A DNA stretch of 64,000 nucleotides from Sedimentibacter hydroxybenzoicus DSM 7310 (GTDB lineage: Bacteria > Bacillota > Clostridia > Tissierellales > Sedimentibacteraceae): positions 124,001 through 188,000 of the forward strand of contig NZ_JACBNQ010000001.1 of assembly GCF_013403245.1 (NCBI RefSeq). The letters are read 5' to 3'. Shown here piece by piece: positions 2,660 to 63,724 of this stretch; the first letter of the stretch is position 1; each line of letters begins with the position of its first letter. The notes below the pieces were generated by a model. That model was not told the DNA's origin. It saw only the letters and a program-made list of their open reading frames with translations, and made no database searches. The position numbers were made by a program, and so were the translations under genes.

Positions 2660-3274
2660 ATGAATATACATATAAAAGACAAGGTATTGGAGTGTAAGAA
2701 TGATCCTGAATTTATAGAAGATATATTTAATGGCATTAATGAGTATTTGCATAAGGAAGATTTGCAATTTTCTCATCTTATTATTGATGGCGAAGAAATA
2801 TACGATAATTTTGATGGTTACATTATTGAAAAGATTAAAGATATTAAGAAAATAGAAGTTATTGCCTTATCGCTTTCGGAAATAGTTGATGAATCACTTA
2901 AGTCAGCTGAACAATATTCGAAAAATGCAATTCCTATAATTAATAAATTAGCAGAAGAATTCTATCAAAAACCTGATGAAAATACATGGTCTCATCTTAC
3001 AGATTTGTTTGAAGGAATTCAATGGATTATACAATCACTTACAGAAATAAACTCGATTGAAAGTTCTGATGAAATAATCGTAGATTATGAAGTATGGGAT
3101 GAATATGTGCAAGAGATATCAAAATTTAATGATATAGTTTTTGAATTGGAAAATGCAGTTCTTAATAAAGATAATATATTAATAGGGGACGTGCTGCTAT
3201 ATGAAATAGTACCTATATTTGAGGTTATGGTTGAAAAATTAAATTCATTAATATCCGAGGTGGATATATGTTAA
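2660..3274 (+). CDS. Hypothetical acidic protein coupled to the Maf glycosyltransferase
   Basis: A 204-residue, mostly helical, acidic, cytosolic protein without membrane segments. The N-terminal ~60 residues alternate strands and helices (FSHLIIDGEEIYDNF). Residues ~75-200 are long helices with many Glu and Ile, consistent with a helical bundle. The start has AGAAGG six bases upstream. Its last seven bases overlap the start of the glycosyltransferase at 3268, so the two are translationally coupled and probably interact. No family is recognised; a chaperone or adaptor that delivers flagellin to Maf is a reasonable guess, not a conclusion. Confidence 0.75.
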   Translation: MNIHIKDKVLECKNDPEFIEDIFNGINEYLHKEDLQFSHLIIDGEEIYDNFDGYIIEKIKDIKKIEVIALSLSEIVDESLKSAEQYSKNAIPIINKLAEEFYQKPDENTWSHLTDLFEGIQWIIQSLTEINSIESSDEIIVDYEVWDEYVQEISKFNDIVFELENAVLNKDNILIGDVLLYEIVPIFEVMVEKLNSLISEVDIC

Positions 3275-5160
3275 CTGATAATATTGTATTTTTAAAAAAC
3301 AATTATCCTAAATTGTATGAAGAATTAGAAAATGAAAGCACAAGAAATCAGCAAAGCAATATCTCTATAGAAAATACTAGGAATAACCAGAAAACCATTA
3401 TAGTTAATAAAGAAGAAAAAATCTTCTATCTTCACAGCAAGTACGATCCTTTACGAGAAGCTGAATCAATTATAAATAAACTTGAAGAAAAAGAAAAGAT
3501 TGACGAAAATTCACACGTGATTTTTTATGGAGTAGGTCTTGGTTATCACGTAGATGTATTTACAAAGAGACATCCTAATACATCATTTTCACTTTATGAA
3601 CCATCAATTGAAGTGTTTCAAATTCTTTTAGATAATATAAACTTAAAAAAGTTAGCTGGTGGCAATCTGGAAATCATGCAATGTGAGTTTGAACCAGAGT
3701 ATGGGAATGCTTTTCTTAATACTTTGCTTAATAAAATAAATAAAAAAATTATAATATCAACTTTACCAATTTATGAGAATGTATTCGAAGAGCAATACAA
3801 TGTCTTTTTTAGTAAATTTAAGGAATTAATAATTGGTAAAAGAATTAATTTGCATACGAATTATGCTCATCAAAAAGATTGGATAACAAATAGCATGAGA
3901 AATATGGAAAAAGTATTATCCACTCCGAGCATTATATCGGAAAAGATGGGTACTTTTAAAAATAAAACAGCTATATTAGTTGCAGCAGGTCCATCCTTGA
4001 ATGAAGAAATTGAAAACCTTAGATATATTAAGGATAATGGATTAGCATACATATTTAGTGTTGGGTCGGCTGTTAATACACTTATTTATAATAACATATA
4101 TCCTCATGCAACATCTGCAATTGATCCAAGTGTTAAAAATCAAGTAGTTTTTGAAACGATAAAGGAAAAAAAGATAACTGAAATTCCTATAATTTTTGGA
4201 TCATCAGCCGGATATAAGACATTAGAAGATTATCCGGGAAATAAATATCATATGATAACAAGTCAGGATGCAATAGCGTTATATTATATGAGAAATGATG
4301 ATGGGAGTACAGTAAACATAGTTTCTGATGCTCCAACTGTGGCAGCGGCAACGCTTCAGTTGTTGTATATATTAGGATTTGAAAAAATAATATTGGTTGG
4401 GCAAAATTTGGGTTATTGCGATAAAAAGAGGTATTCTGAAGGAATAACGTATCACAAAGCTGAATTAACGGATGAGGAATTAAAAAAAGGCATTTGGGTA
4501 CAAGATGTTTATGGAAATGAGATAATGACTACAAACGGATTTAATTCTATGAGAAATCAAATTGAAAGATATATTAAACAACTTCCTAATATAAACGTTA
4601 TAAATACTACTAAAGGCGGAGCTAGAATCGAGGGTGCAGAGTTTATAGAATTAAGGGATATAATTGAAAGTGACCTAAGGCGAAAAATGGTAGATGAAGA
4701 GGGTCTTGATGAATTAGAAAAAAATAAAACACGTTATGATAAAGAATATATGGCATCACAGTCAAAAAATATGGATAAAGCATATGGGAGTGCTTTAAAG
4801 ATAAACAAGGAATATCGAGCAATATTAAATAAAATTGAAAAGGTTATAAACAACAGAAACTATACTCAGGCTAAAAATTTATATGTAAAACTGGATAAAG
4901 AATTGAAAAAAATAGAGAACAATGATTTTTATAAAACATTCATACTTCCTATGAACAGAGTTCAATATAAGATACTGGCAGACAGTATAGAAAGCTTGAA
5001 TGCAGAAAAAGATCCACAAGAACAAGGCAAGAGAATTATAAAAAGCTTCGGCAATTTTATAGATATATGTATCAATGATATAGAAATGATAAAACCAATT
5101 TATGATGATATGAAAGAAAGTATTAATGAATATGTTGAGAAAAATAGTGAGGAGGAGTAA
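3268..5160 (+). CDS. Maf/DUF115 motility-associated glycosyltransferase
   Basis: A 630-residue cytosolic protein of the Maf flagellin glycosyltransferase family. The central DUF115 (MptE-like) domain begins near residue 230 with the diagnostic AILVAAGPSLNEEIENL, followed by SVGSAVNTLIYNNIYPH and ATSAIDPS. The N-terminal ~220 residues carry the nucleotide-binding-like VIFYGVGLGYHVD motif, and residues ~480-630 form a helical C-terminal domain. In Campylobacter, Aeromonas and Geobacillus, Maf proteins transfer nonulosonic acids from CMP-sugars to Ser/Thr of flagellin before export. Here the next genes would make a CMP-nonulosonate and a flagellin gene lies 4.2 kb downstream, so the same role is strongly supported by context. 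The exact sugar cannot be read from the sequence. Confidence 0.88.
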   Translation: MLTDNIVFLKNNYPKLYEELENESTRNQQSNISIENTRNNQKTIIVNKEEKIFYLHSKYDPLREAESIINKLEEKEKIDENSHVIFYGVGLGYHVDVFTKRHPNTSFSLYEPSIEVFQILLDNINLKKLAGGNLEIMQCEFEPEYGNAFLNTLLNKINKKIIISTLPIYENVFEEQYNVFFSKFKELIIGKRINLHTNYAHQKDWITNSMRNMEKVLSTPSIISEKMGTFKNKTAILVAAGPSLNEEIENLRYIKDNGLAYIFSVGSAVNTLIYNNIYPHATSAIDPSVKNQVVFETIKEKKITEIPIIFGSSAGYKTLEDYPGNKYHMITSQDAIALYYMRNDDGSTVNIVSDAPTVAAATLQLLYILGFEKIILVGQNLGYCDKKRYSEGITYHKAELTDEELKKGIWVQDVYGNEIMTTNGFNSMRNQIERYIKQLPNINVINTTKGGARIEGAEFIELRDIIESDLRRKMVDEEGLDELEKNKTRYDKEYMASQSKNMDKAYGSALKINKEYRAILNKIEKVINNRNYTQAKNLYVKLDKELKKIENNDFYKTFILPMNRVQYKILADSIESLNAEKDPQEQGKRIIKSFGNFIDICINDIEMIKPIYDDMKESINEYVEKNSEEE

Positions 5161-5163
5161 AAT

Positions 5164-6036
5164 ATGATTTACAAAAAACCAAGATTAATAGCAGAGGCAG
5201 GATGTAACCATAAAGGAGAACTGGAAATAGCAAAAGAATTAATTAAAATAGCTTCAATATTCTGTAAAGCAGACGTAATAAAATTTCAAAAAAGAAACAA
5301 CAAAGAATTATTGACAAAAGAGCAATACAATGCACCTCATCCAAATCCGGCAAATTCCTATGGAGATACTTATGGAGCTCATAGAGAGTTCTTGGAATTT
5401 GATGTTGAACAGCATAGACAATTAAAAGAATGGTGTGAAGAATTTGGAATTACATATAGTACATCAGTATGGGACCTTACATCTGCAAAAGAGATAGCAT
5501 CGTTAAAACCGGAACTTATAAAAATTCCATCGGCATGTAACAATCATTACGAAATGTTGGAGTGGTTATGTGATAATTACGAGGGTGAAATACATCTATC
5601 CTTTGGAATGACAATGCATGAGGAAGAAGACAAAATTGTTAGGTTATTCGAAGATAAAGGGAGAAATAAGGATTTAGTCATCTATAGCTGTACATCAGGT
5701 TATCCTGTTCCGTACGAAGATATCGCACTGTTAGAAATAGTTCGATTAAAAGATAAGTTCGGAGCGCGGGTAAAAGAAGTTGGATTCTCAGGGCATCATT
5801 TAGGTGTTGCTGTAGATATAGCAGCTTATACTTTAGGAGCAACCACAATTGAAAGACATTATACACTTGACAGAACGTGGAAAGGAACAGACCATGCGGC
5901 TTCTCTTGAACCAAATGGAATCAGAAGATTAAAAAATGATTTGGTTGCAACAAACAAAGCATTAAGCTATAAAAAAGAAGAGATTTTAGATATCGAAAAG
6001 GTTCAACGAGAAAAGTTGAAATACAGGGAGAGATAA
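5164..6036 (+). CDS. NeuB-family nonulosonate (sialic-acid-like) synthase lacking a SAF domain
   Basis: A 290-residue TIM-barrel enzyme that condenses a hexose or hexosamine (possibly phosphorylated) with phosphoenolpyruvate. NeuB signatures are clear: IAEAGCNHKGELEIAKEL near the start, VIKFQK, IKIPSACNNH, SFGMTMHEEE, and GFSGHHLGVAVDIAAYTLGA followed by ERHYTLDRTWKGTDHAASLEP. Typical NeuB, PseI and LegI proteins have ~340-350 residues because of a C-terminal SAF antifreeze-like domain that closes the partner subunit's active site; here the protein ends soon after the barrel. It starts four bases after the Maf stop in one operon. The combination with a HAD phosphatase downstream favours a 9-phosphate product (KDN-9-P or a related sugar) over free sialic acid, but this is inference. 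Confidence 0.85.
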   Translation: MIYKKPRLIAEAGCNHKGELEIAKELIKIASIFCKADVIKFQKRNNKELLTKEQYNAPHPNPANSYGDTYGAHREFLEFDVEQHRQLKEWCEEFGITYSTSVWDLTSAKEIASLKPELIKIPSACNNHYEMLEWLCDNYEGEIHLSFGMTMHEEEDKIVRLFEDKGRNKDLVIYSCTSGYPVPYEDIALLEIVRLKDKFGARVKEVGFSGHHLGVAVDIAAYTLGATTIERHYTLDRTWKGTDHAASLEPNGIRRLKNDLVATNKALSYKKEEILDIEKVQREKLKYRER

Positions 6037-6038
6037 TT

Positions 6039-7217
6039 TTGAAAAATTTTATTGGAAAAACAGTGGCATTTATTCCGGTAAGGGGTGGTAGTAAATCAAT
6101 ACCTTTAAAAAACATAAAATTGATTAACAATCGCCCGTTAATTTATTGGACTTTAGATGCAACCGTTAATTGTGATGAAATTGATTCAGTAGTAGTTTCA
6201 ACAGATAGTAAAGAAATTAAAAGAACAGTTGAAAAGTATAGTTCAGACAAAGTTAAGGTAATAGATAGATCTGAAGAAGTATCTACAGATACGGCAACGA
6301 CAGAATCAGTTATGATTGAATTTGCTCGAAATTATGATTTTGAAAACATTGTATTAGTACAAGCCACCTCACCGCTTTTAAAAAGCAAAGATATTACAAA
6401 AGGCATAAATAAATATTTTGAAAACGGAATTGATAGTGCACTATCAGTGGTCAGACAAAAAAGATTCATATGGGAAGAAAAATCAAGTTCTGCCGTTGCA
6501 ATTAACTATATTCCCTCAAAACGTCCAAGAAGGCAAGAGTTTGACGGATTTTTAGTGGAAAACGGAGCTTTTTATATTACTTCAAAGAAAAATCTTTTAT
6601 CCAGCCAATGTAGAATCTCAGGAAATATAACAGCAATAGAGATGTCTGAAGATACGTATTACGAAATAGACGAACCATCCGATTGGGCAATTGTAGAAGA
6701 ATTATTAAAGAAAAATATAAGTAATAATACTTGTGATGCAGATATAGGAAGAATAAAATGCTTTCTTACAGATAGTGACGGAGTATTGACAGATGGTGGC
6801 ATGTATTATTCAGAAAACGGAGATGAACTCAAGAAATTTAATACCAAAGATGGAATGGGTTTTAAATTACTTAAAGAAGCCGGAATTATAACCGGAATTA
6901 TTACAGGTGAAAACATTGAATTAGTAAGGCGAAGAGCTGAGAAGATGAAAGTAGATGAGGTGCATTTAGGTGTCCATAATAAGATGGAGATACTAAATGA
7001 TATCTGCTCAAAGTATAACTTGAAGTATGAAGAAATTGCTTATATTGGAGACGACATTAATGATTTAGATGTTATTCGAACTGTAGGGCTTGGATGTACA
7101 GTTTATGACGGTATGGATTGTGTAAAGGATGCAGCAAAAATAATAACTAAAGCTAAGGGCGGAGAAGGTGCTGTCAGAGAGATTGTCGAGATTATTTTAA
7201 ATGTAAAAAAAAGGTGA
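6039..7217 (+). CDS. Bifunctional CMP-nonulosonate synthetase / HAD phosphatase
   Basis: A 392-residue fusion. Residues 1-~225 are a NeuA-type cytidylyltransferase with the nucleotide-binding AFIPVRGGSKSIPLKNIK loop, VVVSTDS and LVQATSPLL. Residues ~240-392 are a KdsC-like HAD phosphatase: LTDSDGVLTDGG contains the Asp nucleophile and the general acid, GIITGE is motif II, and YIGDDINDLD is motif IV. Vertebrate CMAS has the same domain order. Here the HAD motifs are intact, so dephosphorylation of the NeuB product followed by activation with CTP could occur in one polypeptide. The start is a TTG preceded by GGGAG; it lies three bases after the neuB stop. Confidence 0.87.
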   Translation: MKNFIGKTVAFIPVRGGSKSIPLKNIKLINNRPLIYWTLDATVNCDEIDSVVVSTDSKEIKRTVEKYSSDKVKVIDRSEEVSTDTATTESVMIEFARNYDFENIVLVQATSPLLKSKDITKGINKYFENGIDSALSVVRQKRFIWEEKSSSAVAINYIPSKRPRRQEFDGFLVENGAFYITSKKNLLSSQCRISGNITAIEMSEDTYYEIDEPSDWAIVEELLKKNISNNTCDADIGRIKCFLTDSDGVLTDGGMYYSENGDELKKFNTKDGMGFKLLKEAGIITGIITGENIELVRRRAEKMKVDEVHLGVHNKMEILNDICSKYNLKYEEIAYIGDDINDLDVIRTVGLGCTVYDGMDCVKDAAKIITKAKGGEGAVREIVEIILNVKKR

Positions 7218-7221
7218 TAAT

Positions 7222-7977
7222 ATGGATTTAACCAATTATTTAATTAAACCATCGGAATCAATTTTGGATGCTTTAACTAAAATTGATAATAACAACAAAG
7301 GGTTTTTGATAGTTGTTGATGATGAGAAATACTTCTTAGGAACGATTACAGATGGTGACATAAGAAGAGGGTTCATTAAAGGTATGAATATAAATGAAAA
7401 AATAGAAAAAGTATATAATAAAGAATCAGAAAAGACATTTAGAAATGATGAATTCAATAAAATAGTTGATTTATTTAAGAAGTCAAAAATAAAATTTCTC
7501 CCGATCATAGATGAATGTGGCAGACTTTTCAATGTAATTACAAAAACAAATATGCATGTCTTGCTGTTAAAAGATATTCAATTTGATTTAGATTATGATT
7601 TTACTAAATTGGATGACTCTTTACTTGAGCATGAGATTTATAACAGACCGTGGGGTATTTACAAGACAACTTTTATTAATGAGTACTCTCAATCAAAAAT
7701 TATAAAAGTTAATCCTAAAGGAATTTTAAGTTTACAAGAACATAAACGACGAGAAGAATATTGGGTGGTCATTAATGGAACAGGAGAAGTTACAATTGGT
7801 GAATCGGTTAAAAAAGTGGAATCCGGTAGTTTTATTTATATACCGAAAGGGTGTAAGCATAGGATTGTAAATTTATCTGAAATAAAATCTCTTATGATTG
7901 CAGAAGTGCAGCTTGGGGACTACTTTGGCGAAGATGATATTATAAGATATGAAGATGCTTATGGTAGAATTCAATAA
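7222..7977 (+). CDS. CBS-domain pair fused to a cupin mannose-6-phosphate isomerase-like domain
   Basis: A 251-residue fusion. Residues 1-~115 hold two CBS motifs (FLIVVDDEKYFLGTITDGDIRRG and KFLPIIDECGRLFNVITKTN), which in other proteins bind adenosyl ligands. Residues ~140-251 match the C-terminal cupin of type II phosphomannose isomerase/ManC: RPWGIYKTTF, LSLQEHKRREEYWVV, YIPKGCKHRI and the terminal GEDDIIRYEDAYGR. The Gln, His, Glu and His metal-ligand positions are kept, although one His of the usual HHH run is Lys. It would interconvert fructose-6-P and mannose-6-P under nucleotide control. In legionaminic-acid loci a CBS pair is usually fused to a nucleotidyltransferase, so this partner is unusual. 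Confidence 0.8.
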   Translation: MDLTNYLIKPSESILDALTKIDNNNKGFLIVVDDEKYFLGTITDGDIRRGFIKGMNINEKIEKVYNKESEKTFRNDEFNKIVDLFKKSKIKFLPIIDECGRLFNVITKTNMHVLLLKDIQFDLDYDFTKLDDSLLEHEIYNRPWGIYKTTFINEYSQSKIIKVNPKGILSLQEHKRREEYWVVINGTGEVTIGESVKKVESGSFIYIPKGCKHRIVNLSEIKSLMIAEVQLGDYFGEDDIIRYEDAYGRIQ

Positions 7978-8020
7978 TGAAAGCTGATTGGGACATAATT
8001 AGCAAAAGGAGGTATTTACT

Positions 8021-9184
8021 TTGGAGAAGATTAAGGCATTGCATGTTGCAAGTTTCAACGGAAATATAGGGGATAATGCAAATCATAACGGATTCAGAAA
8101 AAGATTAATCGAGACATTAGGCAGAGAAATTGATTTTACTAATATTGAGATGAGAGAATTTTATAAATCATGGAATCTTAGAGATTTTAATAGTGACGAT
8201 TTCATTGATTTATGCAATAATCATGACTTAGTAGTTATTGGTGGCGGAAATTTTTTTGAATTAAAATGGGATTATTCACATACAGGAACGACAATAAATA
8301 TTAAGGAAGAAACACTTAACTTAATAAAAACGCCGATATTATTTCATGGAGTAGGTTGTGATATTGCCAAAGGTGCGAGCCAAAATTCAATAGAGAAATT
8401 CAGATTGTTTATGGAACGTATTACAGGTGATAAAAATATATTGGTTAGCGTCAGGAATGACGGCTCTTATGAGACAATACAGAAGTTATATGGTAATTTG
8501 TTCGATAATAAATTTTATAGAGTACCGGACGGAGCTTTTTTTATGGATTCTAAAAAATATGATTTTCCGGAGATTAAGAATGATTATAAGTCTATTGGTA
8601 TAAATGTTGTTGCCGATATGAAAGAAATTCGATTTAACAGCGAAGTAAAGGGCTTCATTTCATACGAGAATTTTATTAATGGCTTTGCTGAAGAATTAAA
8701 TGAATTATTAAAAAAACATGAAAACTATCAAATACTTTTATTCCCCCATATATATAGTGACTTGAGTGCTATTTATGACTTGTTGGAAAAAATAGAGGAT
8801 AAATATAGAAGAACCCGTGTTGTTGTATCACCGTGCCTTACAGGAAAAGGGTCTGAAGAATATATTTTTGGCTTATATAAAGAATGTGATTTTATTATGG
8901 GGATGAGATTTCATAGCAATGTATGTGCCGTTGCACAAAATATTCCTACTATAGGTTTATGCAGCTATAAAAAAATACTTGATTTATACCGGGAAATTGA
9001 TTTAAATGATAGAGTTATAGAAGTGAACAAGTATGGCTTTAAAAGCCTTTTAAGAGAAGAAATAGAAAATACAATAATTAATTTGGAAAAGATAAGGAAT
9101 GATTACAAAAGAGTAAATTCAAATATATTTAAAGAAAGCATTGAATTTTATGATGCGGTTAAAAATTGGTACATAACTAATTAA
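8021..9184 (+). CDS. Polysaccharide pyruvyltransferase-family protein
   Basis: A 387-residue cytosolic protein of the polysaccharide pyruvyltransferase (PF04230, GT-B-like) family. Residues 1-25 hold a Rossmann-like start with NIGDNANHNG; VVIGGGNFFEL and LFHGVGCDIAKGA follow; the C-terminal half has ILLFPHIYSD and DFIMGMRFHSNVCAVAQNIPTIGL, the family's H-containing signature. Members transfer pyruvate from PEP to sugars (CsaB, WcaK) and some act as glycosyltransferases. The start is TTG, supported by AAGGAGG ending eight bases upstream; no ATG has a comparable site. As the last gene of the glycosylation run it may decorate or extend the flagellar glycan. Confidence 0.78.
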   Translation: MEKIKALHVASFNGNIGDNANHNGFRKRLIETLGREIDFTNIEMREFYKSWNLRDFNSDDFIDLCNNHDLVVIGGGNFFELKWDYSHTGTTINIKEETLNLIKTPILFHGVGCDIAKGASQNSIEKFRLFMERITGDKNILVSVRNDGSYETIQKLYGNLFDNKFYRVPDGAFFMDSKKYDFPEIKNDYKSIGINVVADMKEIRFNSEVKGFISYENFINGFAEELNELLKKHENYQILLFPHIYSDLSAIYDLLEKIEDKYRRTRVVVSPCLTGKGSEEYIFGLYKECDFIMGMRFHSNVCAVAQNIPTIGLCSYKKILDLYREIDLNDRVIEVNKYGFKSLLREEIENTIINLEKIRNDYKRVNSNIFKESIEFYDAVKNWYITN

Positions 9185-9358: not shown

Positions 9359-10246
9359 ATGAGAATACAACACAATCTTAACGCAATGAATTCTTTAAGA
9401 CAGCTTGGAATTAACAATAATAACACAGGTAAAAATTTAGAAAAACTTTCATCAGGCTTCAAAATCAACAGAGCAGGTGATGATGCTGCGGGTTTGGCTA
9501 TATCAGAAAAAATGAGAGCTCAGATCAAAGGCTTGGAAATGGCTTCTAAAAATGCTCAAGATGGTATTTCATTAATTCAGACTGCAGAAGGCGGATTGAA
9601 TGAAACTCATGCTATTCTTCAAAGAATGAGAGAATTGGCAGTTCAGGCAGCAAACGGAACAAACAAAGGTGAAGATCTTGACAGTATTGATGCAGAAGTG
9701 GACGCATTATTGACAGAAATAGACAGAATATCTGATTCAACTAAGTTCAATGGTATTGATTTGCTTAATGGTAATATGAGAACAACTGGAAGTGGTGGAA
9801 ATGGTGTATTAACATTACAAATTGGTGCAAACACTGTTCTTAGTGGTACAGCTCATGCTGCCGATCAATATGAAAGAGTGTCATTGGCAATCAATGATAT
9901 GGGTCAAACAGGGTTAGGATTAATTGGTACTGGTGGTACTGGTCTTATTGATTTATCATCACAAACTGGTGCTCAGGCTGCGTTAGTTACATTAGATGCT
10001 GCTATTAAAGCTGTTTCAGAACAAAGAGCTGGTCTTGGTGCTTTACAAAACAGATTAGAGCACACTGTTAACAACTTAGGAGTAACTTCAGAAAACTTAA
10101 CAGCTGCTGAATCTCGTATAAGAGACGTTGATATGGCTAAAGAAATGATGCAGTACACTAAGAACAACATTCTTACTCAAGCTGCTCAGGCTATGCTTGC
10201 TCAGGCAAACATGCAGCCACAAGGTGTATTACAGTTATTACAGTAA
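9359..10246 (+). CDS. fliC: Flagellin
   Basis: A 295-residue flagellin, the main filament subunit. The N-terminal domain begins MRIQHNLNAMNSLRQ and contains KLSSGFKINRAGDDAAGLAISEKMR. A short variable region (~residues 135-200) is rich in Gly, Thr and Ser and offers potential O-glycosylation sites. The C-terminal domain has QRAGLGALQNRLEHTVNNL, RIRDVDMAKEMMQYTKNNIL and ends QGVLQLLQ. It is a single-gene transcription unit with its own sigma-D promoter, structured leader and terminator. GGAGG lies five bases before the ATG. The glycosylation operon directly upstream probably modifies this protein. It is far shorter than the flagellin at the left edge. Confidence 0.97.
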   Translation: MRIQHNLNAMNSLRQLGINNNNTGKNLEKLSSGFKINRAGDDAAGLAISEKMRAQIKGLEMASKNAQDGISLIQTAEGGLNETHAILQRMRELAVQAANGTNKGEDLDSIDAEVDALLTEIDRISDSTKFNGIDLLNGNMRTTGSGGNGVLTLQIGANTVLSGTAHAADQYERVSLAINDMGQTGLGLIGTGGTGLIDLSSQTGAQAALVTLDAAIKAVSEQRAGLGALQNRLEHTVNNLGVTSENLTAAESRIRDVDMAKEMMQYTKNNILTQAAQAMLAQANMQPQGVLQLLQ

Positions 10247-10617: not shown

Positions 10618-12183
10618 ATGAATAAGATTAACAACGATAAGATTTTAAAGTTTACTCCCCTGATAAAAAGATTTATTACAATTGTTTTAATAGGTACATT
10701 AATAATTATATTTTCTATAATACGTATAATAGGAGGGCGTGAAATTACATATAGTGAATGGATGCTTACTCTTTTTAATTTTATTTTTATTGCAATGATA
10801 ATTGGGTTATGCTTTTTCATAATAAAAGTATATAGATCGTTTAAGAAAAATATATACAACAAATTAAAAAACTTGGAACAATCGGATATATTGTACAATG
10901 TAAGAAACAAATTTAAATTTATTGTTGATGCTGAGGAGCATATAAATAATAATATTGAAAAAAGATATGCGCTTGCTCATTATGATATAAATAAATTTTC
11001 GATAATAAATAACAGTGTCGGTTATAAAATAGGCGACGAAATACTTATGCAGATAGGCATGATTTTGAATGATAATTTTGTAAATGAGGTTTTCGGCAAG
11101 GCTGAAGGAGATAATTTTTTTGTTTTATTTGAATATTCTGAGCAGGATGAGTTAGTTAGCAGAATTAAAAATATAACTGAAAAAATTGAGGGTCTGGATA
11201 TTTGGAACGAAGTCAATATAAAGCCGGCAATCATGGCAGGCATATGCTTTATAGATAATGAAAATGTCGATGTACGCTCAGCGATAGATAAGGCAATTTT
11301 TGCAAAAGGTGACTTGAAAAGCGAGTACAAAAGCAGCTATGCAATTTATAATGACAGCATCGGAAATAATTTAATCGAAGTTAAAAAATTAGAGGACGGT
11401 ATGTATGGAGCTTTAGAGAGAAATGAATTTGAAGTTTACATGCAGCCGAAGGTAGATTTAAAGACAGGTGAAATATCCGGTGCCGAGGCGTTGGTCAGAT
11501 GGAATCATCCGGAGTTAGGGTTATTAAATCCAATCAGATTTATCCCGATTTTTGAAAAGAATGGATTTATTACAAAGCTTGATAAATTTGTTTTTGAACA
11601 GGTATGTCTTTATTTAAGAAATTGGCTCAATTTAGGATATTATGTGGTACCTGTTTCGGTAAATGTTTCAAGGATACATTTTTTAAACGCAAATTTTGTA
11701 CATGATTACAATAAAATAAAGGAAAATTATAATATACCTGACAATTTAATTGAAATTGAAATTACTGAATCGGTGGTATTCAGCAATGAAAAAGAGGACG
11801 AAGTTTTTACTGTAATGAGAAAATTCAGAAATGATGGTTTTGATATATCAATGGATGATTTCGGTTCGGGCTATTCATGCCTGGGGTTATTAAAGGATAT
11901 GCCTATTGATACTCTTAAGCTGGATAAGATATTTTTAGAACATATCGAAGATTACAGTTCACAAATCATCGTTAACAATATTGTTAATATGGCAAAAAAT
12001 TTAAATCTGAATGTTATATCGGAAGGTGTAGAAACCGATATGCAGGTTGATTTTTTAAGAGATATAGGTTGTGATATGGCTCAGGGATTTATTTTCGAAA
12101 AACCAATCCCCATATCAGAATTCAATGCGCTTATATGTAATGGCAGAAAAAAATATAAACTGCCCACATCGGAATATGTGTAG
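10618..12183 (+). CDS. Membrane c-di-GMP phosphodiesterase (degenerate GGDEF plus EAL)
   Basis: A 521-residue protein with two membrane helices (~residues 17-40 and 50-72), a GGDEF-like domain (~85-250) and an EAL domain (~265-510). The GGDEF signature is replaced by AEGDN (~162-166), so diguanylate cyclase activity is unlikely; the domain may sense GTP. The EAL domain looks active: GAEALVRW holds the EAL signature, and SVNVS, EITES, DDFGSGYS, LKLDK and SEGVE follow. It would hydrolyse c-di-GMP and favour swimming over attachment. Placement behind a sigma-D promoter and ahead of a chemoreceptor fits a motility role. The ATG is preceded by GGAG. Confidence 0.88.
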   Translation: MNKINNDKILKFTPLIKRFITIVLIGTLIIIFSIIRIIGGREITYSEWMLTLFNFIFIAMIIGLCFFIIKVYRSFKKNIYNKLKNLEQSDILYNVRNKFKFIVDAEEHINNNIEKRYALAHYDINKFSIINNSVGYKIGDEILMQIGMILNDNFVNEVFGKAEGDNFFVLFEYSEQDELVSRIKNITEKIEGLDIWNEVNIKPAIMAGICFIDNENVDVRSAIDKAIFAKGDLKSEYKSSYAIYNDSIGNNLIEVKKLEDGMYGALERNEFEVYMQPKVDLKTGEISGAEALVRWNHPELGLLNPIRFIPIFEKNGFITKLDKFVFEQVCLYLRNWLNLGYYVVPVSVNVSRIHFLNANFVHDYNKIKENYNIPDNLIEIEITESVVFSNEKEDEVFTVMRKFRNDGFDISMDDFGSGYSCLGLLKDMPIDTLKLDKIFLEHIEDYSSQIIVNNIVNMAKNLNLNVISEGVETDMQVDFLRDIGCDMAQGFIFEKPIPISEFNALICNGRKKYKLPTSEYV

Positions 12184-36375: not shown

Positions 36376-38205
36376 TTGAAGACATTAAATGAATTGAAAA
36401 ATATGAGAGACGAGTTCGCTAAAAGCTTAGATAGTGATAAAAAAGAAGATGAAGTAAGAATCGTTGTAGGTATGGCAACGTGTGGTATATCAGCCGGAGC
36501 AAGACCTGTGCTCGATACACTTATTGAAGAAGCGAAGCTTAAAAATTTAAGCAACATAAAGGTGGTTCAGACTGGATGTATAGGAATGTGTGTATATGAG
36601 CCTATAGTCGAGGTTTATGAACCAAACAAGGAGAAAGTAACTTATACTCACGTAGATACGGAAAAAGCTAAAAAAATAATTGACGAATTTGCACAAAAGA
36701 CTGAAGAACCTGTAGAAAGTACGTCTCTGATGGATGGAGATTTCTATAAAAAACAAAAAAGAATTGCTCTAAGAAACTGCGGCTTTATAGACCCTGAAAA
36801 TATTAACGAATATATTGCAAGAGATGGTTATGCCGCTTTAGGTAAAGCGCTTACCGAAATGACCCCTGACGAAGTTATTAAGCATATGAAGGATTCGGGT
36901 CTGAGGGGAAGAGGAGGAGCAGGATTCCCTACGGGAGTTAAATGGGGATTTACCGCACCTAACAAAGCGGATCAAAAATACATTATATGTAATGCTGACG
37001 AAGGAGACCCGGGTGCATTCATGGACAGAAGCGTCCTTGAAGGAGACCCTCATGCTGTTTTAGAAGCAATGGCAATAGCGGGATACGCAATCGGTGCAAC
37101 AAAGGGATACATTTATGTCAGAGCCGAATATCCCGTAGCTGTTAAGAGATTGGAAATAGCAATTAAGCAAGCGACGGAACTCGGGCTTTTAGGTAAAAAT
37201 ATATTTAATTCCGGCTTTGATTTTGAAATAGAAACAAGATTAGGGGCAGGAGCATTCGTATGCGGAGAAGAAACTGCTTTAATGCAATCCATCGAAGGTA
37301 AAAGAGGTATGTCAAGAGTTAAGCCTCCGTTCCCGGCAGTTAAGGGTCTTTGGGGTAAACCATCATGTATTAACAATGTTGAAACATTGGCAAATATACC
37401 TCAGATTATAAATGGAGGACCGAAATGGTTCAGAAGCTTCGGTACAGAAAAATCACCGGGAACAAAGGTGTTTGCTTTAGGCGGTAAGGTTGTTAATACA
37501 GGACTTGTTGAAGTGCCAATGGGAACAACCTTAAGAGAAGTTATCTACGATATAGGCGGCGGATGTCCTGACGGAAAAGAGTTTAAGGCGGTTCAGACCG
37601 GAGGTCCCTCAGGCGGATGCTTAACAAAAGACCATCTTGATACACCTATCGAATATGAAACCCTGATGGCTGTGGGTTCAATGATGGGTTCCGGCGGTAT
37701 GATCGTAATGGATGAGGATAATTGTATGGTTGACATCGCAAGGTTCTTCTTAGAATTTACGGTTGATGAATCCTGCGGCAAATGTACTCCATGCAGAGTA
37801 GGTACTAAGAGAATGCTGTCAATTTTAGAAAAAATTACTGAAGGCAAGGGTACGATGGAGGATTTGGACGAGCTTGAAAGCTTAGCGATAAGTGTTAAGG
37901 ATTCATCTCTTTGCGGTCTGGGACAAACAGCTCCAAACCCTGTATTATCAACATTAAGATATTTCAGAGACGAATACATTGCTCATGTTGTTGATAAGAA
38001 ATGCCCTTCTAAACATTGTAAAGCATTATTAACATATGAAATAGATAAAGACAAATGTACAGGATGTACCCTATGCGCAAGAAAATGTCCTGTAAAATGT
38101 ATAGATGGCACTGTTAAGAATCCTCATGTCATCAATCAGGAAGCGTGCATTAAATGTGGTAATTGCTACAGCGTATGTAGATTTGACGCAGTACAAAAGA
38201 ACTAA
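36376..38205 (+). CDS. NuoF/HydB-like flavoprotein subunit (StnB-like)
   Basis: A 609-residue NADH:acceptor subunit. Residues 1-~115 are a thioredoxin-like [2Fe-2S] domain (Cys36, Cys68 and Cys72 visible). Residues ~150-470 hold the FMN and NADH site: GLRGRGGAGFPTGVKWGF, CNADEGDPGAFMDR and ETALMQSIEGKRGMSR. A NuoF [4Fe-4S] site follows (SCGKCTPCR with SSLCGLGQ), and residues ~555-609 add two [4Fe-4S] ferredoxin motifs (CTGCTLCARKCP, CIKCGNCYSVC). This is the domain set of bifurcating HydB/HndC subunits rather than of complex I NuoF. The start is TTG after AGGAGG. Confidence 0.92.
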   Translation: MKTLNELKNMRDEFAKSLDSDKKEDEVRIVVGMATCGISAGARPVLDTLIEEAKLKNLSNIKVVQTGCIGMCVYEPIVEVYEPNKEKVTYTHVDTEKAKKIIDEFAQKTEEPVESTSLMDGDFYKKQKRIALRNCGFIDPENINEYIARDGYAALGKALTEMTPDEVIKHMKDSGLRGRGGAGFPTGVKWGFTAPNKADQKYIICNADEGDPGAFMDRSVLEGDPHAVLEAMAIAGYAIGATKGYIYVRAEYPVAVKRLEIAIKQATELGLLGKNIFNSGFDFEIETRLGAGAFVCGEETALMQSIEGKRGMSRVKPPFPAVKGLWGKPSCINNVETLANIPQIINGGPKWFRSFGTEKSPGTKVFALGGKVVNTGLVEVPMGTTLREVIYDIGGGCPDGKEFKAVQTGGPSGGCLTKDHLDTPIEYETLMAVGSMMGSGGMIVMDEDNCMVDIARFFLEFTVDESCGKCTPCRVGTKRMLSILEKITEGKGTMEDLDELESLAISVKDSSLCGLGQTAPNPVLSTLRYFRDEYIAHVVDKKCPSKHCKALLTYEIDKDKCTGCTLCARKCPVKCIDGTVKNPHVINQEACIKCGNCYSVCRFDAVQKN

Positions 38206-38216
38206 AGGAGGATAAC

Positions 38217-41200
38217 ATGTCATTAGTTAAGCTTAATATAAACGGTATAGAAATTTCAGCAGAACAAGGAAAAACAGTATTACAGGCAGCTTTAGAAAAT
38301 AATATTGAAATTCCGCATTTATGTTTTGATGAAAGATTAGAAGTATACGCAGGCTGCGGATTGTGCCTGATTGAAATAGAAGGACAGCCAAAGACCGCAA
38401 GAGCATGTGCTACACCTGTAGCCGATGGATTGGTAGTAAGATCAGACACCCCAAAAGTTGTGGAAGCAAGAAATACAGCTTTGAATTTACTTGTATCCCA
38501 GCATATAGGTGACTGTAAACCACCGTGTACCTTGAATTGTCCGGCAGAAACCGACGTCCAGGGATATGTTGGATTGGTTGCAAACAAGCAGCCCTTAGAA
38601 TCATTAAAATTAATAAAACAGAGATTGCCTTTGCCGGCTTGTATAGGAAGAGTATGTCCTCATCCTTGTGAAAAAGCATGCAGGAGACAGCACGTTGAAG
38701 AATCCGTATCCATTGCATGTATTAAGACGTATGCGGCAGATTATGATTTGAATTCTGAAAAACAATATATACCAAGTCTAAAACCGTCTACGGGAAAGAA
38801 GGTTGCAGTGGTAGGAGCAGGTCCTGCCGGCTTGTCGGCTGCGTATTTTCTGCTCAGAGAAGGTCATGGGGTAGAAATATTCGAAGCGATGCCTAAGCCG
38901 GGCGGAATGCTGAGATACGGCATACCCGAATACCGTCTCCCTAAAGATGTGGTTGATGCAGAGGTTGCCATCATTGAAGAAATGGGAGCAAAAATTAATT
39001 ACGGAGTAAAAATCGGAGACGATATGTCTTTAGAATATTTACAAAATAATTTTGATGCCGTATTTTTAGGTATAGGAGCATGGAAAAGCTCACCTATGAG
39101 ATGCGAGGGAGAAAACATCGACGGAGTATTGGGCGGTATTGATTTCTTAATCAACGTAGCTGAAAATAAACCCGTAAAAATAGGCAAAAAGGTTATAGTA
39201 GTAGGCGGCGGAAACACTGCGATGGACGTTGCAAGAACGAGCATTCGTCTGGGAGCAGAAGAAGTGAGAGTAGTTTATAGAAGAACCGAAAGCGAAATGC
39301 CTGCCGAAAAAATAGAAATTAAGGAAGCAAAGGAAGAAGGAGTTATATTCTCATTCCTTTCAGCGCCTGTATCAGTAGAAGGAGGCGACAAAGTTACCGG
39401 CTTAAGATGTGAAAAGATGGTTCTCGGAGAAAAGGATGCATCCGGCAGACAAAAACCTGAACCTACAGGAGAATTTGTAACCTTTGAAGCAGATACAATC
39501 ATAGCGGCAATCGGTCAGGAAGTTGATTGCGGAAATATAAATGTGGCACAGGGTAAAAAGAAAAACATTCAGATTAATGAAGAAACATTCGAAACAAATC
39601 TTAGAGGAGTGTTTGCAGGCGGTGATGCTGCAACGGGCCCTAAGATTGCTATTGAAGCAATTGCTCAGGCATTGCATGCTTGTGAAGCAATAAACGGCTA
39701 TTTAAACGGCGAAATTATTCCTTATAATAAATTACCTTTAGTATATACCGAAGTTACTAAAGAGGATTATAAGGACAGAGAAACAGTACCGAGAGTTCAG
39801 CACAGAACTGTTGAGGCGGAACTCAGAAAAGTAAACTTCCAGCCTATTCTCCCGACTATGACTGAAGAAGAAGCGGTAAGAGAAGGTCAGAGATGTCTCG
39901 AGTGCGGATGTAAGGATTATTTTGAGTGTGAATTGGTTGACTACATCAAAAAATATGAAATAGATACCGTAAAATATCATGCCGAAGATGAAAAGAGACA
40001 AAAAGAAACGGATCATCCTTTCATATCACAGAATGTTGATAAGTGCGTACTTTGCGGACTTTGTGTAAGAACGTGCAACGAGGTTGTGGGAGCCAATGCT
40101 TTAGGCTTCGTTGAAAGAGGAAATGCAACATTTGTGGCACCTGCATTTGAACAGGAATTAAAATTAACCGAATGTATTTCATGCGGTCAATGTATAGATG
40201 TGTGCCCGACAGGAGCATGGCTTGACAGAAGAGGAAACATTAAGGAAATTCCGCTTAACTTGGTTCAAACCAAGTCAGTGTGCAGCTACTGCTCGGTTGG
40301 ATGTGATATAGTTTACGAGCATAAGGACAATATAATCTACCAGGCAAGCAGTCCTAAAGAAAATGAAATTCCGTTGTGCGGAAAGGGCAAGTTTGGTATT
40401 GAGCATATAAATAATGACAACAGGCTGTTAAGTGCTAAAGCAATGATAAAAGGAAGACAGGAAGAAACAGCACTGAACGTTGCATTGTTTGAAACAGCTA
40501 AACGCCTGAGAAGCATACAAAATATGTACGGTGAAGATAGGGTTGCGTTTGTTGTATCACCGAAGTTAACAAATGAAGAATTGCTTACTGTAAAATCAAT
40601 AGTCAAAGAATTAGACAGCCACTACAAGGGTTCATTCACAATAGATGAAGAGCCGGGCATCGAGAGAGTTTTAGGGAAAAATCAATCAACCATAGATTTT
40701 GAACAATTAGATGCCGCTGATTTGATAGTTTCCGTCGGACAATTGTATGAGCATCATCCATCAATGGGTATGAAGCTGAGAAGATTATCAGACAGCAGAA
40801 GTATTGTATCCTGTTCAACAGAATCTACAAAGACAGATAAATGGGCAGCTAAAGCAACAGTAAATAATTATGAAGTATTCTTTGCAGGGGTGTTGAAGGC
40901 GCTGATTGAAAAAGGTGCTATCAAAGCCGAACTATTAAATAAATATCCAAACGGTGATACATTATTAAATGCTGTTAAGGATATTGAAGTATCACAATCT
41001 GCCGATATGGTTGCAGAAGGCATCAAGAAGGCTAAAAAGCCTATTATAATTGCAGACTCAAATACTGTTGATAATAAAGCGTTAAAGGTATTGGCTAATA
41101 TAACATTATTGTTAGGAAACGACAATAAGCCGCATAGAGGATTTATAGTTCTTAAGGCTAAATCCAACAGCCAGGGAGCTTGGGATATCGGATTCAAGAC

Positions 41201-41666
41201 GCCGGGCGAAGAAATCAGAGAGGCAATTATTGACGGCAATGTAAAAGGCTTGGTTGTTATAGGTGAGGATATATTATCAAATGACAAGGAATTAAAAGAA
41301 GCTGTAAATAATCTTAAATTCTTTGCCGCATTCGATATTATGGAAAATGAAACGACTGCAGCTGCAGAATATGTACTTCCTTTAAACAGCTTGGCTGAAT
41401 CTGAGGGAACAGTAGTCAGTGCAGACGGTACAGTTAAAAATGTTGTTGAAGCATTCAAGCCGTTGACAGGAATGTCAAATGCTGAGATGTTTAAAACAAT
41501 CGCTGAATTATTAAATGCTGAGCCGGCTGAAAAATGCAAAAAGGTATATGAAACAGAGCTTTATGTTCCAACCTTTGACAACAAGGAAAAGGAATATAAA
41601 ATCTTTGATACGGTTGAAAGAGCATATTTGGCTAACCTGAGAGCTAATTGCGTAAATGCAAAATAA
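38217..41666 (+). CDS. Giant GltD/NuoG-like iron-sulfur flavoprotein (StnC-like)
   Basis: An 1149-residue multi-domain protein. Residues 1-~75 are a plant-type [2Fe-2S] domain (AGCGLCLIEI). Residues ~95-185 are the GltD N-terminal [4Fe-4S] region (CIGRVCPHPCEKACRR). Residues ~195-500 are a GltD/NfnB-like FAD and NADPH reductase, with FAD motif VAVVGAGPAGLSAAY and dinucleotide motif VIVVGGGNTAMDVARTS followed by VYRR. Residues ~600-675 hold two [4Fe-4S] clusters (CVLCGLCVRTC, CISCGQCIDVCP). The rest resembles a NuoG/formate dehydrogenase molybdopterin fold with CSYCSVGC, probably without cofactor. No hydrogenase H-cluster exists. The layout matches StnC of the Sporomusa-type electron-bifurcating transhydrogenase. 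Confidence 0.87.
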   Translation: MSLVKLNINGIEISAEQGKTVLQAALENNIEIPHLCFDERLEVYAGCGLCLIEIEGQPKTARACATPVADGLVVRSDTPKVVEARNTALNLLVSQHIGDCKPPCTLNCPAETDVQGYVGLVANKQPLESLKLIKQRLPLPACIGRVCPHPCEKACRRQHVEESVSIACIKTYAADYDLNSEKQYIPSLKPSTGKKVAVVGAGPAGLSAAYFLLREGHGVEIFEAMPKPGGMLRYGIPEYRLPKDVVDAEVAIIEEMGAKINYGVKIGDDMSLEYLQNNFDAVFLGIGAWKSSPMRCEGENIDGVLGGIDFLINVAENKPVKIGKKVIVVGGGNTAMDVARTSIRLGAEEVRVVYRRTESEMPAEKIEIKEAKEEGVIFSFLSAPVSVEGGDKVTGLRCEKMVLGEKDASGRQKPEPTGEFVTFEADTIIAAIGQEVDCGNINVAQGKKKNIQINEETFETNLRGVFAGGDAATGPKIAIEAIAQALHACEAINGYLNGEIIPYNKLPLVYTEVTKEDYKDRETVPRVQHRTVEAELRKVNFQPILPTMTEEEAVREGQRCLECGCKDYFECELVDYIKKYEIDTVKYHAEDEKRQKETDHPFISQNVDKCVLCGLCVRTCNEVVGANALGFVERGNATFVAPAFEQELKLTECISCGQCIDVCPTGAWLDRRGNIKEIPLNLVQTKSVCSYCSVGCDIVYEHKDNIIYQASSPKENEIPLCGKGKFGIEHINNDNRLLSAKAMIKGRQEETALNVALFETAKRLRSIQNMYGEDRVAFVVSPKLTNEELLTVKSIVKELDSHYKGSFTIDEEPGIERVLGKNQSTIDFEQLDAADLIVSVGQLYEHHPSMGMKLRRLSDSRSIVSCSTESTKTDKWAAKATVNNYEVFFAGVLKALIEKGAIKAELLNKYPNGDTLLNAVKDIEVSQSADMVAEGIKKAKKPIIIADSNTVDNKALKVLANITLLLGNDNKPHRGFIVLKAKSNSQGAWDIGFKTPGEEIREAIIDGNVKGLVVIGEDILSNDKELKEAVNNLKFFAAFDIMENETTAAAEYVLPLNSLAESEGTVVSADGTVKNVVEAFKPLTGMSNAEMFKTIAELLNAEPAEKCKKVYETELYVPTFDNKEKEYKIFDTVERAYLANLRANCVNAK

Positions 41667-61567: not shown

Positions 61568-63724
61568 ATGGATATAATAACTTTAAAAAATAATCATAAA
61601 CTGTTAAAAGAATATAAATATGAACTGGGTAAAATAGATAAGGGTTATGCAAACAGAACATTGTATGTAAATGTTTCTGATAACAACATTATGGAAAAGC
61701 CTGTTACACAAATGATGAAGGATAAATTTGTAGGCGGTAAGGGCTTTGGATTATGGTATCTGTGGAATGCGGTAACATCTGAAACTAAGTGGAACGATCC
61801 TGAAAATGAAATAGTAATAGCAGGAGGTCCTGTTTGTGGTATTACGCAGTATGCCGGTACAGGCAAATCTCTGGTATGCAGCTTATCTCCTTTGACGGAT
61901 ATCCCCATAGATTCAAACGTAGGCGGATTTTTTGGTCCTTTACTGAAATTCTCAGGCTTTGATGCTTTAGAAATACAAGGTAAGGCAGAAAAGGATGTAA
62001 TAGTTTATATAGATGGAAATACAGGCGTTGTTACAATAGAAGAAGCCCCTCTTGAGGCTGTTGACGGACACGTATTAGGTGAACAGCTGACGGAAATGTA
62101 TGCCGATAATGAGGCGGATAAAAGAAACGTTGCGGTTGTTACGGCAGGTACAGGTGCGGAGCATTCCCGCTTCGGACTGTTAAACTTTACATTTTATGAC
62201 CCCCGAAGAAAAGTTACGAGATTAAAGCAAGCAGGAAGGGGCGGGATAGGAACAGTTTTCAGAGATAAAAAAATAAAGGCGTTGATTGTTAAATTCAGCA
62301 ATGTAAAAGGCGATTTAAACAATCCTTTTGATCAAGCCATAATAAACAAGACAGGTATCAAGTATCATAAGGAAATACATGACCTTGACAGCAAGCAAAA
62401 TAACATGAGAAAAATAGGGACAGCAAACATAATAGAAGTAATGGATGCGTATGATTTGCTTCCTGTCATGAACTATCAGTATGGTATGCACCCTGATACT
62501 CAAAATATAAAATCAACTGTGTTTATAGAAAAATATATTACTCAAGGTGTTCAGGACGGATGCTGGTATGGATGCTCAATGGCATGTGCGAAGGCAGCTG
62601 ATAACTTTGAATTAAAGACAGGTCCATATAAGGGTCAAAAGGTAACTGTTGACGGACCGGAGTATGAAAATGCAGCGGGACTCGGCTCAAATTGTGCAAT
62701 ATTTGATCCTGAAGGAATTTTAGAGCTTAACTTTTATTGTGACACATATGCAATTGATACTATTTCATTTGGTACGGCAACGGCATTTGCAATGGAATGC
62801 TACGAAAGAGGTATTATCAACAAGGAAATAACAGGCGGCATGGAACTAAACTTCGGAAACTTTGAAGCTGCGGCAGAATTGTTACATCAGATGTCGAGAG
62901 GAGAAGGTTTCGGTGTTACGGTAGGGCAGGGAATTAATAGAATGAAAAAACTGTTCGCTGAAAAATACGGTGCGGATCCTGATTTCTTATTTGACATAGG
63001 TATGGAACAAAAAGGTTTGGAATATTCAGAATACGGTTCGAAAGAATCATTGGCACAGCAAGGAGGCTACGGTCTGACAAACAAAGGTCCCCAGCACGAT
63101 GAAGCGTGGCTGATATTCATGGATATGGTTAACAACCAGATTCCTACCTTTGAAGATAAGGCAGAAGCACTTCATTACTTCCCCATGTTCAGAACATGGT
63201 TCGGGCTGTATGGATTATGTAAGCTGCCTTGGAATGACATTGTTCCGGCTGACAATAAATATACTTCGGAGCCTGCAAAAGTTCCGGAACATGTTCAAAA
63301 CTATTTAGACGTTGTATACGGTGTTACGGGTAAAAAATTGAGTGTTTCCGATATGATTAAGGAATCCGAAAGAGTATATAACTTCCAGAAAATATTCTGT
63401 ATCAGAATGGGTAAGGGCTTAAGAGCCAATGACAGAACACCGTACCGCTCAATGGGTCCGGTTACAAAGGAAGAATATGAATCAAGACAGGAACGATATG
63501 ACAGCCAATTAAAAGAAAAAGTAGTATATGATCCGGAAGGCAAATCAACCGAAGAAAAAATAGCCGTTCTTAGAAAGTACAGAGAAAATCAATATGAATT
63601 GCTGATGGATGCCGTTTACAAAAGAAGAGGATGGAATTCCAATGCCGTACCTAAATTAGAACATTTAAAATATCTGGATATGGAATTACCTGAATTGATA
63701 GAAGTTATTAAAGATTTGCAGTAA
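61568..63724 (+). CDS. Aldehyde ferredoxin oxidoreductase (tungsten-type)
   Basis: A 718-residue AOR-family enzyme that oxidises aldehydes to acids or, with reduced ferredoxin, acids to aldehydes. Signatures are FVGGKGFGLWYLWNA, GPVCGITQYAGTGKS, a VGGFFGPLLKFSGFDALEI pterin-binding stretch, and the FeS ligands CWYGCSMACAK with a fourth Cys in GLYGLCKLPW. The length exceeds the ~600 residues of Pyrococcus AOR by extra C-terminal helices. In amino-acid fermenters it removes aldehydes formed from 2-oxo acids. AGGAGGA precedes the ATG. Confidence 0.94.
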   Translation: MDIITLKNNHKLLKEYKYELGKIDKGYANRTLYVNVSDNNIMEKPVTQMMKDKFVGGKGFGLWYLWNAVTSETKWNDPENEIVIAGGPVCGITQYAGTGKSLVCSLSPLTDIPIDSNVGGFFGPLLKFSGFDALEIQGKAEKDVIVYIDGNTGVVTIEEAPLEAVDGHVLGEQLTEMYADNEADKRNVAVVTAGTGAEHSRFGLLNFTFYDPRRKVTRLKQAGRGGIGTVFRDKKIKALIVKFSNVKGDLNNPFDQAIINKTGIKYHKEIHDLDSKQNNMRKIGTANIIEVMDAYDLLPVMNYQYGMHPDTQNIKSTVFIEKYITQGVQDGCWYGCSMACAKAADNFELKTGPYKGQKVTVDGPEYENAAGLGSNCAIFDPEGILELNFYCDTYAIDTISFGTATAFAMECYERGIINKEITGGMELNFGNFEAAAELLHQMSRGEGFGVTVGQGINRMKKLFAEKYGADPDFLFDIGMEQKGLEYSEYGSKESLAQQGGYGLTNKGPQHDEAWLIFMDMVNNQIPTFEDKAEALHYFPMFRTWFGLYGLCKLPWNDIVPADNKYTSEPAKVPEHVQNYLDVVYGVTGKKLSVSDMIKESERVYNFQKIFCIRMGKGLRANDRTPYRSMGPVTKEEYESRQERYDSQLKEKVVYDPEGKSTEEKIAVLRKYRENQYELLMDAVYKRRGWNSNAVPKLEHLKYLDMELPELIEVIKDLQ

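Follow-up and report, generated by a model that had tools for sequence, protein, structure and literature searches.

The stretch of DNA analysed here (the window; 64,000 nucleotides, positions 124,001 to 188,000 of contig NZ_JACBNQ010000001.1, contig C1 in our set) belongs to the 3.8-Mb genome of Sedimentibacter hydroxybenzoicus DSM 7310. Near its start, a run of plus-strand genes lies between a gene with a Flagellin_C domain (40-1293) and a flagellin gene (9359-10246), and chemotaxis- and flagellum-like genes, as judged by eye from their translations, are found in the 12 kb that precede the window. We consider it likely, on sequence grounds, that this run is an operon that makes cytidine monophosphate (CMP)-activated ketodeoxynononic acid (KDN) and places KDN on flagellin. 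The run, whose cassette stretch spans 2660-9184, has the following order:

2660-3274, plus strand: orf204, a protein of 204 amino acids, candidate GlfM; overlaps the start of Maf
3268-5160, plus strand: Maf, flagellin nonulosonate transferase (PF01973, 3.4e-35; PF20157, 1.1e-5)
5164-6036, plus strand: NeuB-family synthase of 290 amino acids, predicted KDN-9-phosphate synthase (PF03102, 4e-67)
6039-7217, plus strand: NeuA-HAD fusion, whole gene (PF02348, 1.1e-26, then a HAD of the KdsC/KDN-9-phosphate phosphatase type)
6039-6704 (edge approximate), plus strand: NeuA domain, N-terminal in the fusion, predicted CMP-KDN synthetase (9t4z PpNeuA, 4.2e-47)
6741-7217 (edge approximate), plus strand: HAD domain, C-terminal in the fusion, predicted KDN-9-phosphate phosphatase (3e81, 4.4e-37)
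7222-7977, plus strand: CBS-cupin, a CBS pair fused to a cupin of the type II mannose-6-phosphate isomerase kind (PF00571, 9.7e-10; PF01050, 4.9e-28)
8021-9184, plus strand: polysaccharide pyruvyltransferase-family protein (PF04230, 2.4e-19); starts 43 bases past the CBS-cupin gene
9359-10246, plus strand: flagellin, likely acceptor (PF00669, PF00700; above the cut-off of NF009446, flagellin Hag)

The succession of Maf, NeuB-like, NeuA/HAD and CBS/cupin genes had been described in an earlier, sequence-only reading, and Pfam matches bear it out; the genes are separated by gaps of 2-4 bases, with ribosome-binding-site-like sequence ahead of the starts. All the genes named in that reading are present, but its argument passed over the pyruvyltransferase-family gene of the same stretch. 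The absence of hexosamine-modifying genes, on which the argument turned, is real: Pfam searches of the window operon detect no nucleotide-GlcNAc dehydratase, aminotransferase or hydrolysing epimerase.

We infer that the genes are co-transcribed and that their products act in series. The CBS-cupin would isomerise fructose-6-phosphate to mannose-6-phosphate, and NeuB would condense mannose-6-phosphate with phosphoenolpyruvate, yielding KDN-9-phosphate. The HAD domain would remove the phosphate, and the NeuA domain, which belongs to the same polypeptide, would convert KDN to CMP-KDN. Maf and the small protein encoded ahead of it would then transfer KDN to Ser/Thr residues of the downstream flagellin. 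The CBS pair may sense a nucleotide, possibly CMP-KDN, and thereby control the first step.

The Pfam matches of the NeuB-type synthase include no SAF domain. Neisseria NeuB requires Arg314 of the SAF domain, and structures of its R314A and R314K variants are among the entries matched when the window NeuB was subjected to a fold search. The predicted model is a barrel (mean predicted local distance difference test score, 89.0), and the top solved match is a short Leptospira synthase, 6ncs. The protein scores below the cut-offs for N-acetylneuraminate synthase (NCBIfam NeuB_NnaB; 186.5 vs 399.65) and pseudaminic acid synthase (PseI; 131.1 vs 340.25), and the first of these cut-offs is passed by the NeuBs of two genomes of the same genus, G009 (522.1) and G007 (406.6). 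In a 55-row tree, in which BT1714 was not among the rows, the window NeuB falls within a 29-row clade with support 100/100 and a stem of 1.96, for which the program issued a long-branch warning. Sinorhizobium, Bacteroidota and Clostridia rows are included in the clade. Its sister is made of four of the control NeuBs described below, three of them short (276-294 amino acids), and the remaining controls are separate; median length is 291 in the clade vs 342 in the controls. That the window NeuB is a barrel of a distinct clade, apart from synthases of the NeuB/LegI/PseI types, is a well-supported prediction; its connection to a characterised bacterial KDN-9-phosphate synthase is indirect.

The best match to the window NeuB in 12 genomes of the same genus shows 35% identity. 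Close relatives (60-68%) are found in three of 397 other genomes of the phylum, where the next best match reaches 38%. Nine of 17 matched plasmid records, from alphaproteobacterial genera, match at 60-80%. A scan of named genomes, from which the best 80 of at least 518 confirmed relatives were kept (70-86%), spreads the family over Lachnospiraceae, other Clostridia, Bacteroidota, Spirochaetes and others, and the nearest NeuB belongs to a metagenome-assembled genome labelled Selenomonadales. This scattered distribution suggests horizontal transfer. Clade members are also present on Sinorhizobium plasmids, and KDN in the capsule has been reported for another strain, S. fredii (available portion of PMC9000132). 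Three alphaproteobacterial plasmid loci (L044-L046) carry a clade NeuB and a NeuA-HAD fusion together with an annotated alpha-2,3-sialyltransferase and a DUF6716 glycosyltransferase; each is probably a KDN polysaccharide locus.

The best NCBIfam model for the HAD domain of the fusion is the Bacteroides KDN-9-phosphate phosphatase, NF058599. The domain aligns end to end with 3e81, which we take to be BT1713, and residues E56, R64 and K67 are kept. Lu et al. are said to have reported in 2009 that these residues bind the sugar and mark KDN-9-phosphate phosphatases. The triad is kept in 66 of 66 HADs of the clade loci vs one of three control HADs, and chain 4hgq has A at position 56 where 3e81 has E. 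Judging from these features, the domain probably works like a KDN-9-phosphate phosphatase, though it stands outside the NCBIfam equivalog. As to the NeuA domain, its best match in the PDB is PpNeuA, ahead of the mouse CMP-N-acetylneuraminic acid (Neu5Ac) synthetase CMAS (6.2e-36). The prefix "Pp" indicates that this is probably the KDN-specific enzyme of Prymnesium parvum. According to the available portion of PMC6200933, the CMP-KDN synthetase of P. parvum accepts KDN and not Neu5Ac, and its KDN-9-phosphate synthase uses mannose-6-phosphate only, of seven sugars tried.

The HAD domain also scores above the cut-off of TIGR01670, the KdsC-type subfamily. One could hence imagine that the synthase takes another phosphorylated sugar, and that flagellin bears some other nonulosonate or an octulosonate, for example 3-deoxy-D-manno-octulosonic acid (Kdo) made from arabinose-5-phosphate; a Clostridium Maf is indeed able to transfer Kdo (PMC11339370, in the portion available). 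We find this highly improbable: the synthase is of the NeuB type and not of the KdsA type, the cupin indicates mannose-6-phosphate, and arabinose-5-phosphate was among the sugars not used by the P. parvum synthase (same portion of PMC6200933).

The cupin had been read from the sequence as mannose-6-phosphate isomerase-like, and this assignment holds: the match to PF01050, the family of the mannose-6-phosphate isomerase C-terminus, reaches 98.1 bits vs a curated cut-off of 23.6. The CBS-cupin lies far under the cut-off of the bifunctional GMP_PMI model (101 vs 373), as expected since the guanylyltransferase part is absent. Aligned by sequence with 7zvy and 2vqa, the CBS-cupin has Q172, H174, E179 and H213 at the positions of the cupin metal site; all 15 of the 15 CBS-cupins compared share these four residues, and the metal site thus appears to be intact. 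A first alignment had raised the doubt of a lost metal ligand, as a pair resembling the HxH of ManC reads HxR in six of the 15 CBS-cupins, that of the window included. This doubt was dropped because the alignment with 7zvy and 2vqa sets the cupin HxH on Q172 and H174, and 7zvy has Arg at R176 (as read from sequence, not coordinates). In a fold search with the predicted cupin, Thermococcus phosphomannose isomerases occupy ranks 2-3 (template modelling score 0.86 by target length); the top match is the cupin of chicken CENP-C, and many other cupins follow close behind the isomerases, so that fold alone cannot name the activity.

Family searches of the genome find no match to type I mannose-6-phosphate isomerase, and four other PF01050 matches are weak (29 bits or less). 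By sequence, the CBS-cupin is therefore the only strong mannose-6-phosphate isomerase candidate of the genome. A mannose-family phosphotransferase system component is also encoded, and mannose imported through that system is another possible source of mannose-6-phosphate. Of the 80 clade loci, 14 have a CBS-cupin in the available sequence surrounding NeuB. When 398 genomes of the phylum were searched (E 1e-25), the only full-length match was that of the window, and seven others covered the cupin part only; as no more than three of the other genomes have a close NeuB, this search shows rarity more than linkage.

The CBS pair is similar to that of KpsF and to those of proteins of about 350 amino acids found in control loci. 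Three proteins of that kind were checked, one in G009 and the other two in control loci, and all proved to be CBS-nucleotidyltransferases. On the basis of this likeness we propose that the CBS-cupin may be subject to end-product control. In the literature searched, no paper was found that joins phosphomannose isomerase, a CBS domain and a cupin.

Gene neighbourhoods were compared between 80 loci of the NeuB clade and 20 control NeuB loci of the same phylum, 66 and 16 of which remain when full 6-kb flanks are demanded. The 6-kb comparison leaves aside L070 and L110 (no NeuB frame called), L114 (centred on a second, distant NeuB), and 11 clade loci and four of the 20 controls with less than 6 kb on either side. 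The controls are 20 of 43 weaker NeuB rows, mostly the highest-scoring, and include the near-duplicates L161/L170 and L166/L168. Because loci are related to one another, Fisher p-values for the figures that follow should not be taken literally.

Within 6 kb, homologues of PseB (1/66 clade vs 15/16 control), PseC (4/66 vs 13/16) and Epimerase_2, the family of NeuC and LegG (0/66 vs 13/16), are nearly confined to the controls. Any of the three is found in 5/66 clade loci vs 15/16 controls, and two or more in 0/66 vs 14/16. The lack of hexosamine modification seen in the window is thus typical of its NeuB clade. HAD phosphatases show the opposite pattern (55/66 clade vs 1/16 control), and cytidylyltransferases are similarly frequent in both sets (52/66 and 13/16). 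A NeuB accompanied by a phosphatase, and not by hexosamine modification, matches the needs of a 9-phosphate route that starts from an unmodified hexose-6-phosphate.

Competing precursors were sought in the whole genome. Family searches detect a single NeuB; a candidate second one (L002, 32.7 bits) is a 3-deoxy-D-arabino-heptulosonate-7-phosphate synthase. Neither NanE nor a stand-alone PseB is matched in the genome. No NeuC was found over the cut-off, in a scoring that covered the strong PF02350 match (L137), which turned out to be WecB (531 bits vs 113 for NeuC); the second match, L138, is weak. Of the PF02719 matches L140 and L141, the former stays well under the LegB cut-off (121 vs 475). 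N-acetylmannosamine-6-phosphate (ManNAc-6-P) and the legionaminic and pseudaminic precursors have, therefore, no evident source. Taken with the marker residues of the HAD domain and the closeness of the NeuA domain to PpNeuA, this favours the view, first advanced from the sequence alone, that the product would be KDN.

The Maf protein carries both diagnostic Pfam domains (PF01973 and PF20157), lies near flagellin and is in synteny with its counterpart in G009. A homologue of orf204 is found directly ahead of Maf in five of five related loci compared (L179-L182 and L154; 33-70% identity), and by position only orf204 is a candidate GlfM (glycosylation factor for Maf), after the available portion of PMC13317340. 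A close Maf is present in two of 12 same-genus genomes, several of which are incomplete; identity is 76% in G007 and 70% in G009. The order in G009 is orf203, Maf, two genes, LegB, LegC, CBS-nucleotidyltransferase, a NeuD-type acetyltransferase, NeuB_NnaB, NeuC_NnaA, two genes, NeuA and flagellin. Scores exceed the cut-offs for LegB (521.5 vs 475), LegC (491.2 vs 420), NeuB_NnaB (522.1 vs 399.65) and NeuC_NnaA (451.3 vs 235.9), and by these matches the cassette between Maf and flagellin is a legionaminic-type set. Past the flagellin of G009 lies a gene 61% identical to the gene that follows flagellin in the window (10618-12183). In G007, a NeuB_NnaB-type synthase (406.6) comes after the Maf, near the contig end. 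The genes behind a conserved Maf differ, which indicates that the slot holds different donor pathways and that cassettes swap. Legionaminic acid has the same D-glycero-D-galacto configuration as KDN. According to the available portion of PMC11339370, Neu5Ac and Kdo are both accepted by a legionaminic-type Maf from Clostridium.

Several observations weigh against the interpretation that CMP-KDN is made here and that KDN is placed on flagellin. Some concern the sugar. The HAD domain scores 171.1 bits, below the 180-bit cut-off of NF058599, and a UDP-GlcNAc dehydratase relative of 629 amino acids with a PseB-like part is encoded elsewhere in the genome. Serratia strains with KDN also carry Neu5Ac, at about 1:20 (available portion of PMC9000132). 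Besides, a NeuB-phosphatase fusion of Leptospira has been proposed for Neu5Ac (PMC3438082), so the phosphatase alone does not mean KDN. The product might then be CMP-Neu5Ac, made from ManNAc-6-P by an animal-like 9-phosphate route, and the flagellin sugar Neu5Ac; the resemblance of the NeuA domain to the mouse synthetase fits such a route, and the human synthase is capable of making both Neu5Ac-9-phosphate and KDN-9-phosphate (PMC9000132, same portion). We nevertheless regard it as unlikely, considering that the genome has neither a NanE match nor a NeuC over the cut-off, that no Epimerase_2 homologue accompanies the clade NeuBs within 6 kb, and that the window NeuB has no SAF domain.

Other observations concern the destination. 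Within 6 kb, Maf (7/66 clade vs 12/16 control) and flagellin (6/66 vs 7/16) are rarer by clade NeuBs, and CBS domains are commoner by control NeuBs (10/16 vs 7/66). The NeuB clade is not mainly flagellar: Maf and/or flagellin occur in the available stretch of 10 of 80 clade loci, and in the other 70, some of them short contigs, the KDN-type genes may serve other glycans. Even among the 10 linked loci, three (L054, L064 and L065) show no HAD match, and L054 shows no NeuA. In L052, which carries the closest homologue of the cassette, neither Maf nor flagellin is seen within the 17.7 kb available. Lastly, the proposed scheme gives the pyruvyltransferase no role, and its presence suggests polysaccharide work. 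KDN could thus be made for some other glycan of the cell surface, and the genes would lie beside flagellar ones only incidentally. This we judge very unlikely, as Maf and NeuB are separated by 3 bases, a legionaminic-type cassette fills the same pre-flagellin slot in G009, and the association with Maf and/or flagellin recurs in the 10 clade loci. One of the carriers, Eubacterium oxidoreducens DSM 3217 (L103), harbors within about 9 kb a NeuB, a NeuA-HAD (PF02348 and HAD matches), a protein with the PF01973 Maf domain and two flagellins. As this carrier is cultured, the idea of KDN on flagellin is testable now.

Additional observations deserve mention. The pyruvyltransferase-family gene has weak homologues only in L078 and L081 among the fetched loci (E 1e-8), and its product might add pyruvate to the flagellin sugar. 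A family of proteins of about 390 amino acids (L082:12044-13216 and its cluster) has 15 members in seven of the 80 clade loci, some of them adjoining KDN-type genes in flagellar loci. Directly after NeuA-HAD, L117 (12101-13464) and L096 (9935-11322) carry ribulose-phosphate-epimerase-like and IspD-like genes (Pfam, on L117), a pair that suggests a CDP-linked pentitol or similar compound beside KDN. In L064, a protein of 129 amino acids encoded between Maf and NeuB (9532-9921) has a sub-threshold HAD_PNKP match and is perhaps a different phosphatase that replaces the missing KdsC-type HAD. Elsewhere in the window (36376-41666 and 61568-63724), NuoF-like and NuoG/molybdopterin-type iron-sulphur proteins and an aldehyde ferredoxin oxidoreductase are indicative of ordinary anaerobic metabolism.

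A wider proposal can be offered as a speculation that we hold to be less likely than not. KDN, perhaps pyruvylated, may join pseudaminic and legionaminic acids as a third type of nonulosonate found on flagellin, and one conserved Maf, with its partner, might take any D-glycero-D-galacto cassette placed behind it. The CBS pair on the isomerase would read a cytidine or adenine nucleotide and the end product would shut the first step, as with the CBS domains of the arabinose-5-phosphate isomerase of Kdo synthesis and of the CBS-nucleotidyltransferase of legionaminic-type loci. We are less confident of the proposed regulation and pyruvylation than of the pathway itself.

If the pathway is correct, central metabolism would directly supply a flagellar sugar that is free of nitrogen and whose synthesis consumes no UDP-GlcNAc. 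Maf loci would swap whole donor pathways while the transferase is retained, and the CBS-cupin would represent a new way of gating a pathway. KDN occurs in vertebrates, so its presence on flagellin would also bear on how hosts perceive flagella.

The sequence-only reading had taken such a pathway, dedicated to flagellin, to be undescribed in Clostridia. The KDN route itself is already known from Bacteroides, Prymnesium and Serratia, as is glycosylation by Maf; what is new is the position of the predicted route at flagellin. In the literature searched, which leaves out most subscription papers, no paper joins KDN, flagellin and Maf, and among the papers listed by a wider search none mentions KDN on flagellin in its title or the opening of its abstract. 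Closest in setting are the flagellin islands of Clostridium, in which Maf and a varying set of nonulosonate genes likewise lie within the flagellar cluster; however, they use pseudaminic and legionaminic pathways that start from hexosamines, and the window operon has no such genes (PMC13317340, available portion). The term "KDN" is absent from the main text of this 2026 survey, as far as that portion goes.

Closest in chemistry are three other systems. The capsule loci KL1/KL2 of Serratia marcescens contain neuA and neuB, and KDN depends on the locus; the Serratia NeuB has a fused sugar-phosphate isomerase/epimerase domain (COG1082) of another family than the window cupin, and its KDN belongs to the capsule and not to flagellin, which makes it an experimental case of KDN on another glycan (available portion of PMC9000132). 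Prymnesium parvum, whose enzyme we take the top PDB match of the NeuA domain to be, differs in being an alga and in having no phosphatase gene found and no flagellin link, in the portion of PMC6200933 available. Finally, Bacteroides thetaiotaomicron performs the same steps with the KDN-9-phosphate synthase BT1714 and the phosphatase BT1713, and the window HAD aligns with 3e81; here, in contrast, the predicted phosphatase and CMP-KDN synthetase are fused, a predicted isomerase is added, and the whole is set together with Maf and flagellin.

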